The notes under the pieces were generated by a model, which saw nothing but the letters and a program-made list of their open reading frames with translations, was not told the DNA's origin and did no database searches. This document shows, one piece after another, positions 1,005 through 17,508 of a DNA stretch of 64,000 nucleotides (within the stretch, counting starts at the first letter, position 1; each line of letters begins with the position of its first letter). The translations under genes were made by a program, and so were the position numbers. Source of the DNA: Nitrospira sp. GTDB lineage: Bacteria > Nitrospirota > Nitrospiria > Nitrospirales > Nitrospiraceae. The stretch is from contig JARFXP010000001.1 in assembly GCA_029194675.1 (NCBI GenBank), positions 1,666,501 through 1,730,500 on the forward strand, in the 5' to 3' direction.

Positions 1005-1432
1005 ACCGCAATAAGTCGCAAGTCATGTTCCACGTGATCGGAGCGGGCTGAGAAACCGACTCGTCATTAGTCAAACCTCATGCGTTTCAATTCAACACTG
1101 AAGAGTGGCGATCCAACATTGCCTTCCGCACTTTCATCCACACTCGTTCAATAACTGATGCATAGCCATCCACTTGCTAAACCTTACCGAGGAGAAAATC
1201 AATACACCCATCACACCGTGTCCGTAAACGTGATCGAAGAGGCCGTCGAACAGCAGAAGGGTATCGCAGCTGGCGAGTGAGGGTCGATGAAGCCTATCCG
1301 ACCGACAGCTTCGTCGCACCGCTCAGCGACTTGAGGAGATGGCGCAGGCTGTAATACATGGAATGAAGGAGAAAAGGAACCGATCAGGCAGATCTGTCTG
1401 GATGGCGGTTGCTGATGCGAGGCGTGACAGAT
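1005..1432. other. Gene-poor stretch with a diverged repeat
   Basis: No convincing gene. Positions 1151-1330 match 13222-13406 (see the repeat entries). The rest shows no structure I could recognise. Confidence 0.5.
1151..1330 (+). repeat. Diverged 180-bp repeat, copy 1
   Basis: Starts ATAACTGATGCATAG and ends CCGCTCAGCGAC. It aligns along its length, with scattered substitutions and small indels, to 13222-13406 in the same orientation. One plus-strand frame reads VNVIEEAVEQQKGIAA here and VNVIEEAAE-stop-QKDIAAN in copy 2, so it may be a fossil of a coding sequence. I do not recognise the parent gene. Confidence 0.7.
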
Positions 1433-12819: not shown

Positions 12820-12906
12820 ATGGACTACATGGCGGTCAAAGATCAGGTCAAGGCTTACGTTTCGGAAGACGGATATGCCACGACGATTCAGCGAGTCTCG
12901 GATTAA
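12820..12906 (+). pseudogene. Short C-terminal-like coding remnant
   Basis: A 28-codon frame (MDYMAVKDQVKAYVSEDG... ending QRVSD) that looks protein-like and ends exactly where the opposite-strand isochorismatase remnant ends. I do not recognise it. Probably the last codons of a gene whose 5' part is gone. Confidence 0.25.
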
Positions 12907-13222
12907 TTATCAGCTGCTGACCAACCCAATCTGTATCGTGGAGCAAGCCGCTCAATGACTTCGGCGGTTGTGGCGACTTCGCCAAAGATGCCGCCTTCCA
13001 CGCCGATCATGGCTAATGAAGCTTTGTGTAGGTCGGGATCACCCGAAGCGCAGGCATCGCTCACAGTGATACAGCGGTAGCCGAGGTCGATTGCAGCACG
13101 CAACGTCGAGCTGACGCACACTTCTGTGGTGACGCCCGTTAGAATGAGTGTTTCAACGCCGCGCTTCGTCAGCATCTGTTGTAATCCCGTATGAGCAAAC
13201 GCGCTATAGCCAGGCTTGTCGA
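12903..13222 (-). pseudogene. Isochorismatase-family hydrolase, N-terminus lost
   Basis: About 107 residues matching the second half of a cysteine hydrolase of the isochorismatase family: VIDKPGYSAF carries the catalytic Lys and TLILTGVTTEVCVSST the nucleophile Cys. The first ~110 residues, which should hold the catalytic Asp (DxQ motif), are missing because the frame runs at 13222 into the diverged repeat shared with 1151-1330. A GTG at 13244 would permit translation of a fragment, but it cannot be catalytic. The repeat therefore marks the breakpoint. Confidence 0.75.
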
Positions 13223-13406
13223 TAACTGATGCATAGGCATCCACTTGCTAAACCTTACTGTGGAGAAAATCAACACGTCCACCACACGTTGTCCGTGAAT
13301 GTGATCGAAGAGGCCGCCGAATAGCAGAAGGATATCGCAGCCAACAAACGAGTGCGCGATGAAGCCTATCCGGCCGACAGCGTCTTCGGTCGCGCCGCTC
13401 AGCGAC
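13222..13406 (+). repeat. Diverged 180-bp repeat, copy 2
   Basis: Direct-orientation partner of 1151-1330. Its left edge truncates the isochorismatase gene and its right edge lies 7 bp before the vapB start. Copy 2 contains an in-frame TAG where copy 1 reads CAG, so both look like decayed copies. Confidence 0.7.
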
Positions 13407-13412
13407 ACGCAT

Positions 13413-13605
13413 ATGTCGTACTACGCGCAACATCGACGACCAGCTCCTCAGACGCCCTGGACAACTGACCGACGTTCAGGAGAAGACGCAACTCGTACGC
13501 TTCGGACTCGAAACCCTTATTTCACGCGAAGCCGCGAAGCGGCTTGCTCGACTGGGCGGCAGCGAACCCTAATTGAAAGGCATCCGCCGGCGTCGCCCCG
13601 CCTAG
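13413..13605 (+). pseudogene. vapB: VapB-like antitoxin, frameshifted and with a stop
   Basis: From 13414 one frame reads CRTTRNIDDQLLRRPGQLTD, then EKTQLVRFGLETLISREAAKRLARLGG, the shape of a ribbon-helix-helix VapB antitoxin. Two lesions are visible. The ATG at 13413 is one base out of frame with RTTRNIDD, so an extra T after the ATG breaks the start. A TAA at 13570 interrupts the C-terminal toxin-binding tail, which would otherwise run (LKGIRRRRPA) to TAG 13603, 2 bp before vapC. If the base calls are right the antitoxin is not made in full. Confidence 0.65.
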
Positions 13606-13607
13606 GT

Positions 13608-13979
13608 ATGCCCACTCTGGTCGACACCTCCCTGTGGATCGACCACTTTCGTACCAATTCCTTCGCCCTCCGACGGCTGCTGGACGATGACCTGGTCATG
13701 TGCCACCCGCTCGTCATCGGGGAAATTGCCTGCGGCAACTTGAAACATCGATCTGAGGTGCTCGAGTCTCTGGCCGCGTTGCCTACCACGCCCATCATTG
13801 AATATCAGGAACTCCTGACTTTTATCGCAACCCATAAGCTCTTCGGACAGGGTTTAGGATGGATCGACGTACATCTCCTCGCCTCGACAATGCTCCGGCA
13901 GGCGACACTCTGGTCTCTCGATCAGCCTCTACGACGGGCTGCCAGAAGACTGCGCTGTCATTTTGAATCGCCCGACTGA
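13608..13979 (+). CDS. vapC: VapC-type PIN-domain ribonuclease toxin
   Basis: A 123-residue PIN protein. LVDTSLWIDHF holds the first catalytic Asp, VIGEIACGNL the Glu, and GWIDVHLLAST the later Asp of the acidic site. Such toxins cut RNA, commonly initiator tRNA or rRNA, and are held inactive by VapB. ATG 13608 starts 2 bp after the natural vapB stop, the usual coupled arrangement. All catalytic residues are present although the cognate antitoxin gene looks damaged, so the toxin may be poorly translated, or controlled by another VapB. Confidence 0.82.
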   Translation: MPTLVDTSLWIDHFRTNSFALRRLLDDDLVMCHPLVIGEIACGNLKHRSEVLESLAALPTTPIIEYQELLTFIATHKLFGQGLGWIDVHLLASTMLRQATLWSLDQPLRRAARRLRCHFESPD

Positions 13980-14514
13980 TCGATCGTTCCCTACGCTTCA
14001 CAATCGGAACAATTCGGATCAGACAAAGGTATCCGACCCTTTATAAATTCCCTCACTTGCCGTTAGCGACCGTTCCTTTCTGCTGCACCCAATAATCCGC
14101 TGTTTCCATTGGATGTATGACAACCCATATCTCCAGCCACCTGGGCCTACCCGCCCGCGCCCCACCGCGTGCCCCTCGTCGAGTCAAGCTATTCTAGACA
14201 ATCTAACAGCCGAAAACCGCCTGCCAAACGCAAGCCGACGGCGCCGCTCGCCCGCAGTCCGAGCGAGCGACGCGATAAGGAATCTTTCGCGCGCTTACCG
14301 ACTACTCCCCCGCCGAGCCGGAGCGCTACAATAGTGGGTTTTTCATCACGCAGAAAAAGAATTGACACCTCTCCTGGTCTTGGGCTATAGCTCCGCCATA
14401 GAAAAGGCCGTTTAAAAATCCTATCCCTACTTTCTCCAGGCGATGGCGTATGGCATCGGTAAGGAAATCGGGAGAAACTGCGGCCACAGCCACTGCCGCC
14501 CACGGGAGGGCCAA
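13980..14514. other. Left flank of the KAP island
   Basis: About 530 bp without a complete gene. It contains the last 22 codons of an IS91-type transposase (14129-14197) and then unrecognised sequence up to the KAP start. An in-frame ATG at 14443 exists for the KAP gene, but the better ribosome-binding site supports 14515. Confidence 0.45.
14129..14197 (+). mobile_element. IS91-family transposase, C-terminal tail fragment
   Basis: The frame reads ISSHLGLPARAPPRAPRRV then KLF and TAG, which is the C-terminal end of IS91/ISCR-like Y2 transposases. The same SHLGLP segment follows the larger transposase piece near 19270, in the same orientation. Only the tail survives here, so it marks the left border of a former rolling-circle element next to the KAP gene. 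Confidence 0.6.
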
Positions 14515-17508
14515 ATGGCAGCGCCTAAGCAGACTGTGCCCCCGCCTTCCAAAGGCGTGCCGAACCAGACGTCGGATGACGACTTTGCGGCGGAACCTGC
14601 GCCCACTACCGATCCTCCAAAGACCTATGCGGTGACACTGGTCTTCGATACGGAGAAAGGTGTCCGGCTTGCGCAGCCCAAGCGTTATCCCGTCGTCGTG
14701 TCGGCGCAGCTCGCGCGCGTTCTGGTGCGCGCGGCCAGTATTGCTCCAACTTCCGAACCACCGCTTCAATTCAGCACGCTGCTGATAGCGATGCTGGTCG
14801 ACGAGGACAAACGCCTCGAAACGCAGCTCAAGTCTCTGCAGGGGGTGAATTTCGAGGCCATTGCACGCAAGCGAGCCTACAACGAGGCATCGCTTCGCAG
14901 TCTCAACGAAGGCACGCTCAGGGGCGATTACCTCGCTTCGATGTCGGCGCGCGAGGCTCTCGAGGAAACCGAGCGAATTGCGCGCGCGACATCCGGCCCG
15001 GTTCTCGACATCCGGCACCTCAATGCGGCCTACCCCATTCTCGAAAAATGGCACTTGAAGGACTTCGCCGATTTCCAGATCGATCGACTCGACTGGGCGC
15101 GTGCCGTGGGCTCGGACATGGCGCGACAGTTTCCAGTCGAGCGGACTTACTGGATGCGATACGCGGATCGCGCCGCGCCTGTACCGCTCACCTCGTTCAG
15201 CGCCGACGTGTACACGCAGGAAGACCTCCTGGGCATCGATCGCAGCGTCGATGCGCTGGCGCTCCTCATGGCCTCCACGCGCACGGTGACGCCGCTCGCC
15301 ATCGGCGTGTTCGGCCCCTGGGGCTCGGGCAAGAGCTTCTTCATGCGTCACCTGCAGAAGCGGATCGTTGGGCTCCGCAAGGACGAGCAGGACCGGATCG
15401 ACTCGTGGGTGGAGAAACGAGAGAAAAAATCCGCGAAACCGGAGGATGCACCTCTCTACTTCGGCGAAATAGCACAGGTGGAGTTCAACGCCTGGCACTA
15501 CAACGAGGGCAATCTCGTCGCGAGTCTCGTCGAGCAGCTGTTCCGCAATCTCCGGATCCTGCCCAACGACGGCGACAAGGAGCTCGACGCACGGCGCGCG
15601 AACATGCTGATGCAGCTCAAGGTACTGAACAGTGATCTGACTACGGTCGAAGCGACCGTCGCAACCGCGAAACAGAACGTCGAAACCGCCAAGACGAACG
15701 TAGCCCACGCCGCAAGGGATGCCGCGGTGGCGAAGCACCAGGTCGACCAGCATGCACAGCAAATCAAGATCGAGAACGATGCATTGAAGTCAGAGCTCGG
15801 CAAACTCGATGACGCATTGAAGGCAGCCAGGCTCGAACCGGGCCACGTCGACCCCAACGCCGTAATTGCCGTGGCGTTCGGCCCGCTCGCGCCGTTTTTT
15901 GCGAAAGTTCAGGGCGCCAGCGAGGACGCGCGCAATCGGGTCTTCGATTGGAAAGAATTCTTCGGCCGGGTTTTCAGCACCAAAGGCCTCGTGATCATCG
16001 CCCTCTGCCTGCTGGTGCCCCTGGTGTTGACGCTCAAGGATGTGCTCGAAGCGCAATGGTCGGCCTTGATGGGTTCCGTGGCGGCTATTGTCACCGCGCT
16101 CGGCAGTGCCCTGGATGTATTCAAGCGCAGTCGCCAGCAGTTCGAAGCGAAGCTCGCGGCGCTCGATGCCGAGCAGGACCGACGCGCGGAGGAGGTTCGA
16201 AAGAACATTCAGCAACAGCAACTAGCCCTCACCGAAAACGCCAAGCAAAAGATTGCGGCGCTCAGCGCCGATCTCGAGACGCGCCGCAAGAATCTCGCAG
16301 AATGCGAGACGGCAATGAATCTCGCGGCCAGCAACCTTGCAGCCCGTGCGCAGGTACATGACGCACGGCTGCTCGAACGCGTCACAGCGGAGAAGAAAGT
16401 GCGTGCGGCGGAGGCGGAACTCGAACGGTTGTCGAGCGCGCTGCTGCTGGAGGAATTCATCACGGAACGCGCGAGTACCGACGAATACCGCAAGCAGCTC
16501 GGATTCCTGGCCCTGGTGCGCCGGGATATCGAGCGATTGTCAAAGCTGATCGATGACGCGAATCGGGAATGGCTTGCGACGGACAACTCGAAAGGAAAAC
16601 CTTCGATCAATCGCATCGTGCTCTATATCGACGATCTCGACCGCTGCAAGGAAAGCACCGTGCTTGCCGTACTCGAAGCCGTGCACCTGCTGCTGGCGTT
16701 CCCTCTGTTCGTCTGCGCCGTGGCGGTGGACCCGCGCTGGGTGGAGAAATGCCTGCGCGAGGCCCGTAAGCAGATGTTCATTGACGAAGATGCACCCAGT
16801 GGCCAGGTACCGACCGGAGCGACCGCGACCGTCGGCGACTACCTGGAAAAGATCTTCCAGATTCCCATCTGGATGTCGCCGATCGAGAGCCAGACTCGAG
16901 CGACCCTGGTCAACTCCCTGCTCGGACCAACCGCGGCTCCCGCTGCCAGGGCAACTGGCAATGGTGCCGACCACACCGCGACGGCGCAGGAGGATCAACC
17001 CGCCCAGGCAGGCGCGTTCAACACACTGGTGGCTTATGCGCGCGAGCGACCCGACCCGCTCAAGATACTTCCCGAAGAGGCAAAATTCGTCGGTGAGATT
17101 GCCGACCTGCTCAGCGACCGGCCGCGCGCCCTCAAGCGCTTCGTCAATACGTATCGTTTGCTGAAGGCGAGTCTTCCGGATATCGAGCGAACGGACTTCG
17201 TGACCGAGGATGCCTCGAGCCCGCATCGAGCCTGCCTGATTCAGCTCGCGTTCTTCACGAGCCATCCACGATTGGCGTCGGAGCTGGTTTCGAAGCTCGA
17301 GGCCGAGGCCACTGCCGCGAACGGTGCCTTGAGTCCGGCTCCGAAGGTTCAAACGACGTTCGGAGGTTGGCTCGAAAAGACGTTCCAGGAGAAATCACCG
17401 GTGCGCAAGGCACTCGAAGAAATCCCGGCAAGCAAGGCGATTTCGCTGCAGGTCTTCCAGCGGTGGCTACCGCTGACGAGCCGCTATCTTTTTCACCGCG
17501 CAAGCTAG
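14515..17508 (+). CDS. KAP-family P-loop NTPase with Clp-N-like N-terminus
   Basis: A protein of about 997 residues. Residues 1-200 form a helical region (LLIAMLVDEDKRLETQLKSL, LNAAYPILEKWHLKD) resembling a Clp N-terminal repeat. Walker A GPWGSGKS is near residue 266, and VEFNAWHYNEGNLVASL follows as in KAP NTPases. A long coiled coil (about 375-450) leads to two membrane helices (about 490-540), a second coiled coil (545-660) and Walker B LYIDDLDRC near 705. Membrane segments inserted between the Walker motifs define the KAP family, whose member PifA of plasmid F blocks phage T7. The start at 14515 has GGGAGGG upstream; ATG 14443 would add 24 residues. Flanking IS91 pieces suggest acquisition by transfer; an antiphage role is inference. 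Confidence 0.85.
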   Translation: MAAPKQTVPPPSKGVPNQTSDDDFAAEPAPTTDPPKTYAVTLVFDTEKGVRLAQPKRYPVVVSAQLARVLVRAASIAPTSEPPLQFSTLLIAMLVDEDKRLETQLKSLQGVNFEAIARKRAYNEASLRSLNEGTLRGDYLASMSAREALEETERIARATSGPVLDIRHLNAAYPILEKWHLKDFADFQIDRLDWARAVGSDMARQFPVERTYWMRYADRAAPVPLTSFSADVYTQEDLLGIDRSVDALALLMASTRTVTPLAIGVFGPWGSGKSFFMRHLQKRIVGLRKDEQDRIDSWVEKREKKSAKPEDAPLYFGEIAQVEFNAWHYNEGNLVASLVEQLFRNLRILPNDGDKELDARRANMLMQLKVLNSDLTTVEATVATAKQNVETAKTNVAHAARDAAVAKHQVDQHAQQIKIENDALKSELGKLDDALKAARLEPGHVDPNAVIAVAFGPLAPFFAKVQGASEDARNRVFDWKEFFGRVFSTKGLVIIALCLLVPLVLTLKDVLEAQWSALMGSVAAIVTALGSALDVFKRSRQQFEAKLAALDAEQDRRAEEVRKNIQQQQLALTENAKQKIAALSADLETRRKNLAECETAMNLAASNLAARAQVHDARLLERVTAEKKVRAAEAELERLSSALLLEEFITERASTDEYRKQLGFLALVRRDIERLSKLIDDANREWLATDNSKGKPSINRIVLYIDDLDRCKESTVLAVLEAVHLLLAFPLFVCAVAVDPRWVEKCLREARKQMFIDEDAPSGQVPTGATATVGDYLEKIFQIPIWMSPIESQTRATLVNSLLGPTAAPAARATGNGADHTATAQEDQPAQAGAFNTLVAYARERPDPLKILPEEAKFVGEIADLLSDRPRALKRFVNTYRLLKASLPDIERTDFVTEDASSPHRACLIQLAFFTSHPRLASELVSKLEAEATAANGALSPAPKVQTTFGGWLEKTFQEKSPVRKALEEIPASKAISLQVFQRWLPLTSRYLFHRAS

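Follow-up and report, generated by a model that had tools for sequence, protein, structure and literature searches.

Organization of the locus

The window analysed here is a stretch of 64,000 nucleotides from the genome of Nitrospira sp. (assembly GCA_029194675.1, our G000; 5.2 Mb in 16 contigs, 99.21% complete). Its forward strand carries the remnant of a vapB antitoxin gene (13417–13605) followed by a vapC toxin gene (13608–13979), the open frame of which encodes a PIN-domain protein of 123 aa. The former vapB start codon, an ATG at 13413–13415 on the same strand, no longer shares the reading frame of vapB and now shares that of vapC, and an open frame of 188 aa runs from this ATG through vapC (13413–13979, forward strand), its first 65 aa being vapB DNA read in another frame. 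In gene order, gene sizes, protein families, acidic residues and predicted PIN fold, the locus resembles the type II VapBC systems (PF09957 and PF01850).

The upstream neighbours of vapBC are gene fragments. One lies on the reverse strand and encodes the C-terminal half of a protein of the isochorismatase family (12906–13244; Pfam PF00857, 99.4 bits, profile positions 89–175 of 175). The other, on the forward strand (13219–13406), derives from the 3' region of a LonB-like protease gene, and its left end shares a few bases with the isochorismatase ORF. The LonB-like piece was recognized by a self-match in the window (1148–1330, 83.5% identity) and by matches in other genomes, which cover 13236–13406 in G017 (80%) or shorter parts elsewhere; the open frame of one relative of the fragment (L029) carries AAA_32, LonB_AAA-LID and Lon_C domains. 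With copies at 13219–13406, at 1148–1330 and in G017, the fragment looks like a dispersed gene scrap. Long open frames flank the vapBC locus on both sides. A KAP-family P-loop NTPase of 1021 aa is encoded downstream (14443–17508) and partially resembles defence proteins of the QatA type (PADLOC E 3.5e-16).

The antitoxin gene is broken twice

The vapB body matches the VapB_antitoxin family (PF09957, 30.4 bits vs the Pfam cut-off of 23.4). The preliminary description of this DNA had reported a one-base excess after the vapB ATG and a TAA in the tail of the gene, and both lesions were borne out by comparison with ten relatives aligned at the nucleotide level, some of which are not intact, and with the translations of 16 intact ones: the body is one base off register with the ATG, and the TAA lies at 13570–13572, ahead of the normal family end, a TAG at 13603–13605. 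The alignments show the loss of frame directly. At the TAA site the aligned relatives have CAT, CGT or CAG, and TAA is at least two substitutions away from each of these. Three of the 39 VapB columns that are invariant in the 16 others are altered in the window, position 1 by the change of frame and two by substitution (A15P and G20D). No usual start codon opens at least 30 aa in the vapB frame of the window, and ribosomes in that frame would halt at 13570. A functional vapBC operon requires an intact, translated vapB upstream of vapC; here the ATG is out of frame and the TAA interrupts the reading, disabling lesions which, relative to the intact relatives, place the locus among decayed toxin-antitoxin loci.

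The toxin gene retains a VapC frame

The window VapC is a PIN-domain protein (PF01850, 28.4 bits vs a Pfam cut-off of 23.6), and with its conserved acidic quartet it belongs to the VapC class. The earlier claim that the toxin keeps all acidic residues holds for the four invariant ones, D6, E39, D87 and D105, which are present in 18/18 aligned VapCs including that of the window, and fails at position 74, which is E or D in all 16 intact Nitrospira VapCs and in 15/17 wider relatives (K or R in the other two) and is Ala here. Two of the 46 VapC columns that are invariant in the other 16 are also changed (V9L and T103S); intact loci have between 0 and 3 unique changes each at such columns.

The AlphaFold2 model of the protein has a pLDDT of 92.2, and in a Foldseek search with this model the first three rows were M. 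tuberculosis VapC11, while of the 50 matches listed VapC15 reached the highest query TM-score (0.81). A sequence-profile search for structures returned VapC11 and VapC15 chains only, and weakly (E 0.0021 and 0.028). The NCBIfam equivalog NF047959 scored 24.8 bits, far under its cut-off of 80, and the window VapC had no PADLOC match at E 0.01. Sequence and predicted fold mark the protein as a VapC, a putative toxin.

Loss of the upstream promoter region

The nine best relatives (L010–L018) all become homologous to the window at the DNA level from 13406–13410 onwards, further matches being shorter pieces. The homology of the LonB-like fragment ends at this same breakpoint, and in the 58 other genomes compared we found no single match spanning the junction. 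Upstream of vapB, TTGAC stands at −36 or −37 from the ATG in 15 of the 16 intact relatives, and in 13 of the 16 a script identified TTGACR followed after 18 bases by a −10-like hexamer whose end lies at −8. This hexamer is CATATT in 10 of the 13; the −10 threshold of the script is looser than that of the promoter tool. No promoter-like site of this type was found upstream of the window vapB, either by script or by promoter tool. The tool returned 0 sites vs 0.7 expected in shuffled sequence, so that its negative result is weak taken alone. Three intact relatives (G005, G016 and G063) also fail the promoter test of the script, G063 lacking TTGAC as well, and given these, promoters of other types for vapBC are possible. 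As far as sequence can tell, the promoter/operator that a functional vapBC operon requires upstream of vapB is therefore missing in the window. Neither this loss nor the fact that the ATG at 13413 now shares the vapC frame was recorded in the preliminary description.

In the relatives, a transcript start 7–8 nt past the −10 hexamer is predicted to make the vapB mRNA leaderless; toxin-antitoxin transcripts of M. tuberculosis are described as predominantly leaderless in an excerpt of PMC8485053. Palindromic GCATAT-type repeats lie near the predicted start in many of the Nitrospira vapBC loci compared (L054–L064, L066–L070).

Translation of vapC and the 188-aa frame

The vapC start lies 2 nt past the vapB stop in 14/16 intact relatives, and inspection by eye of the 18 nt before vapC showed nothing resembling a Shine-Dalgarno sequence in the relatives; none is visible before the window vapC either. 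Because of this spacing and the lack of a visible Shine-Dalgarno sequence, vapC would be expected to be translated by re-initiation after vapB.

Of the 19 loci compared, the window alone has a vapC frame that is open across vapB (0 stops vs at least one in 18/18 others), and an ATG in this frame is present also in G005, G030 and G060, but with stops. In simulations with the codon usage of the window, the vapC frame across vapB was open in 0.099–0.113 of cases, and we dropped the open frame as a special feature, since about 0.1 is not beyond chance. Searched at E 0.1, the N-terminal extension of the 188-aa frame matched no family in Pfam or NCBIfam.

Decay of vapBC in the genus Nitrospira

We surveyed 79 genomes of the genus, that of the window included, and at E 1e-12 or better found VapC matches in 21 and VapB matches in 24, together 25 genomes. 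Weaker VapB matches (such as that of G071, at 1e-7) and the vapC tails in G003, G012 (near a contig end) and G027 were left out of the count. Both genes are open in 16 of the 25. Unlike a type II VapBC system in working order, the window has a twice-broken antitoxin and no promoter-like site, and its vapBC is predicted not to be a working pair. The other nine genomes, the window's among them, hold degraded copies, so that vapBC decays commonly in Nitrospira. Both genes are broken in G007, G030 and G061; G067 has only a vapC fragment; G006 has an open vapB and a broken vapC; and in G062, G092 and G100 vapB is open and no vapC was found in the 0.9–1.5 kb downstream. The combination of a broken vapB with an open vapC occurs in the window alone. 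Thus four of the five half-decayed loci with one open gene retain the antitoxin, and the window is the exception; the downstream regions of G062 and G100 look alike and may represent one event.

The open vapBs of G092 (L090), G062 (L099) and G100 (L101) appear to be antitoxins left after toxin loss. N. moscoviensis (G060; L043, L069) was considered as a second case of an orphan vapC and rejected, as an intact vapB lies 264 bp further upstream. The 264-bp insert separates vapB and vapC with both frames intact (L069), and is built of repeats, with 15 matches in that genome when its own is counted.

Selection on the two genes

In a two-ratio codon model comparing the window branch with the background, omega of vapC was 0.27 vs 0.157 (2dlnL 1.34 against equal ratios and 7.80 against 1), and omega of vapB was 0.21 vs 0.079 (2dlnL 3.48 and 9.24, respectively). 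The window branch reaches back to the split from G015 (support of a nearby node, 53), and these values mix functional and decayed periods. The omegas of G005 (5.06; rooting taxon), G022 (3.10) and G031 (0.99; both short branches) were disregarded as unreliable. With omega well under 1, both genes would have been constrained over most of the window branch, which favours a late collapse of vapBC. That vapC does not differ from the background also fits a vapC still under selection. If lesions were evenly spread over vapB and vapC, both small lesions would fall in vapB by chance with a probability of (193/565) squared, about 0.12, and their distribution can be explained without selection to keep vapC.

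Possible explanations for an open toxin frame beside a broken antitoxin

The preliminary description had offered three ways in which cells could tolerate the orphan toxin: an unlinked antitoxin, a toxin that is not translated, or wrong base calls. The loss of the promoter region and the breakage of vapB, the reading of which would serve the initiation of vapC, make absence of translation the best supported of the three, by inference. Wrong base calls, with vapB in reality intact, are very improbable: a one-base excess is a common type of error, but the TAA takes at least two substitutions, normally invariant VapB residues are changed too (A15P and G20D), and the promoter region, next to two gene fragments, was lost by a rearrangement, which no base-call error would produce (a misjoined assembly being a separate possibility). 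The near-complete genome, assembled in 16 contigs, and the long open frames on either side also speak against an error. Neutralisation of VapC by an unlinked antitoxin is likewise very unlikely. The suggested search for other VapB homologues did return one, a second PF09957 VapB at C1:1121512 (48.5 bits), from which the nearest listed PIN match lies about 7 kb away. It is a weak candidate, however, being distant (34% alike by HMMER, E 1.5e-4, with no BLASTP alignment) and reading differently in its C-terminal part, which in VapBs is the toxin-binding part. The 17 other PIN matches in the genome may have further antitoxin partners. A second copy of vapBC as the rescuer was rejected, as the genome search found no other VapC of the family at E 1e-12 and only this one distant VapB. 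The VapB at C1:1121512 (L051) itself has a different open frame downstream and is perhaps an orphan antitoxin.

It is also conceivable, and in our view unlikely, that VapC is made and is no longer toxic, such that the exchange of E/D74 for Ala together with V9L and T103S has weakened the toxin and the antitoxin is unneeded. The constancy of position 74 in the intact relatives and the two changes at otherwise invariant columns are in line with this, but the invariant acidic four are kept, the fold is confidently predicted and finds VapC matches, two wider relatives do without an acidic residue at position 74, and the intact loci bear unique changes of their own. We consider it extremely improbable that the 188-aa frame yields a functional PIN protein which has gained an N-terminal extension and a new role. 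Only in the window, among the 19 loci, is the vapC frame free of stops across vapB and provided with an ATG, but an ATG in that frame occurs in three relatives with stops, the openness is of the order given by chance, a promoter-like site was looked for and not found, and the extension matches no known family in Pfam or NCBIfam at the threshold used. There is hardly more than a slight chance that the cell keeps the extended VapC, or a vapC transcribed by passing read-through in place of its own promoter, as a domesticated RNase needing no antitoxin.

A probable, recently silenced vapBC remnant

Very probably, the locus is a recently beheaded vapBC remnant which is decaying and most likely silent, its toxin frame so far spared. 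As we reconstruct it, an ordinary type II vapBC operon would have been the starting point, from which a rearrangement at 13406–13410, visible by comparison with the relatives, took away the promoter/operator region and left the LonB-like gene fragment in its place. The loss of the vapB frame and the gain of the TAA, both evident in the alignments, would have followed, this order being the one we infer, and vapC would simply not yet have been struck by mutation. In the relatives vapB is at the predicted transcript start, and translation of vapC probably follows that of vapB; with neither a promoter nor a translated vapB, little or no VapC would be made and the antidote would be unneeded. Transcription of vapC by read-through from neighbouring DNA is possible. 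It counts against a silent remnant that no other of the nine degraded loci has kept an open toxin frame.

Decaying chromosomal toxin-antitoxin loci, for example E. coli O157 ccd, are a close parallel. In an excerpt of PMC7167474 such systems are described as decaying by deletion, nonsense mutations and drift, and inactive toxin mutants are spoken of, whereas in the window the toxin frame is still open. Orphan VapCs of M. tuberculosis, with doubtful active sites, are mentioned in an excerpt of PMC7354431. The window likewise has a vapC without a working partner; unlike those orphans, it has its broken partner still visible in place and keeps the invariant acidic residues. This locus is mentioned neither in these excerpts nor in one of PMC4226512, nor in the excerpts of abstracts on orphan toxins, Nitrospira VapC and vapBC frameshifts.

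Apart from the order of decay, the locus is a case of ordinary gene decay. Once both genes were silenced together, decay could reach the antitoxin ahead of the toxin. In essence, the locus suggests one way out of toxin addiction, in which the shared promoter is lost, and with it the translation coupled to vapB, and both genes are silenced at once.
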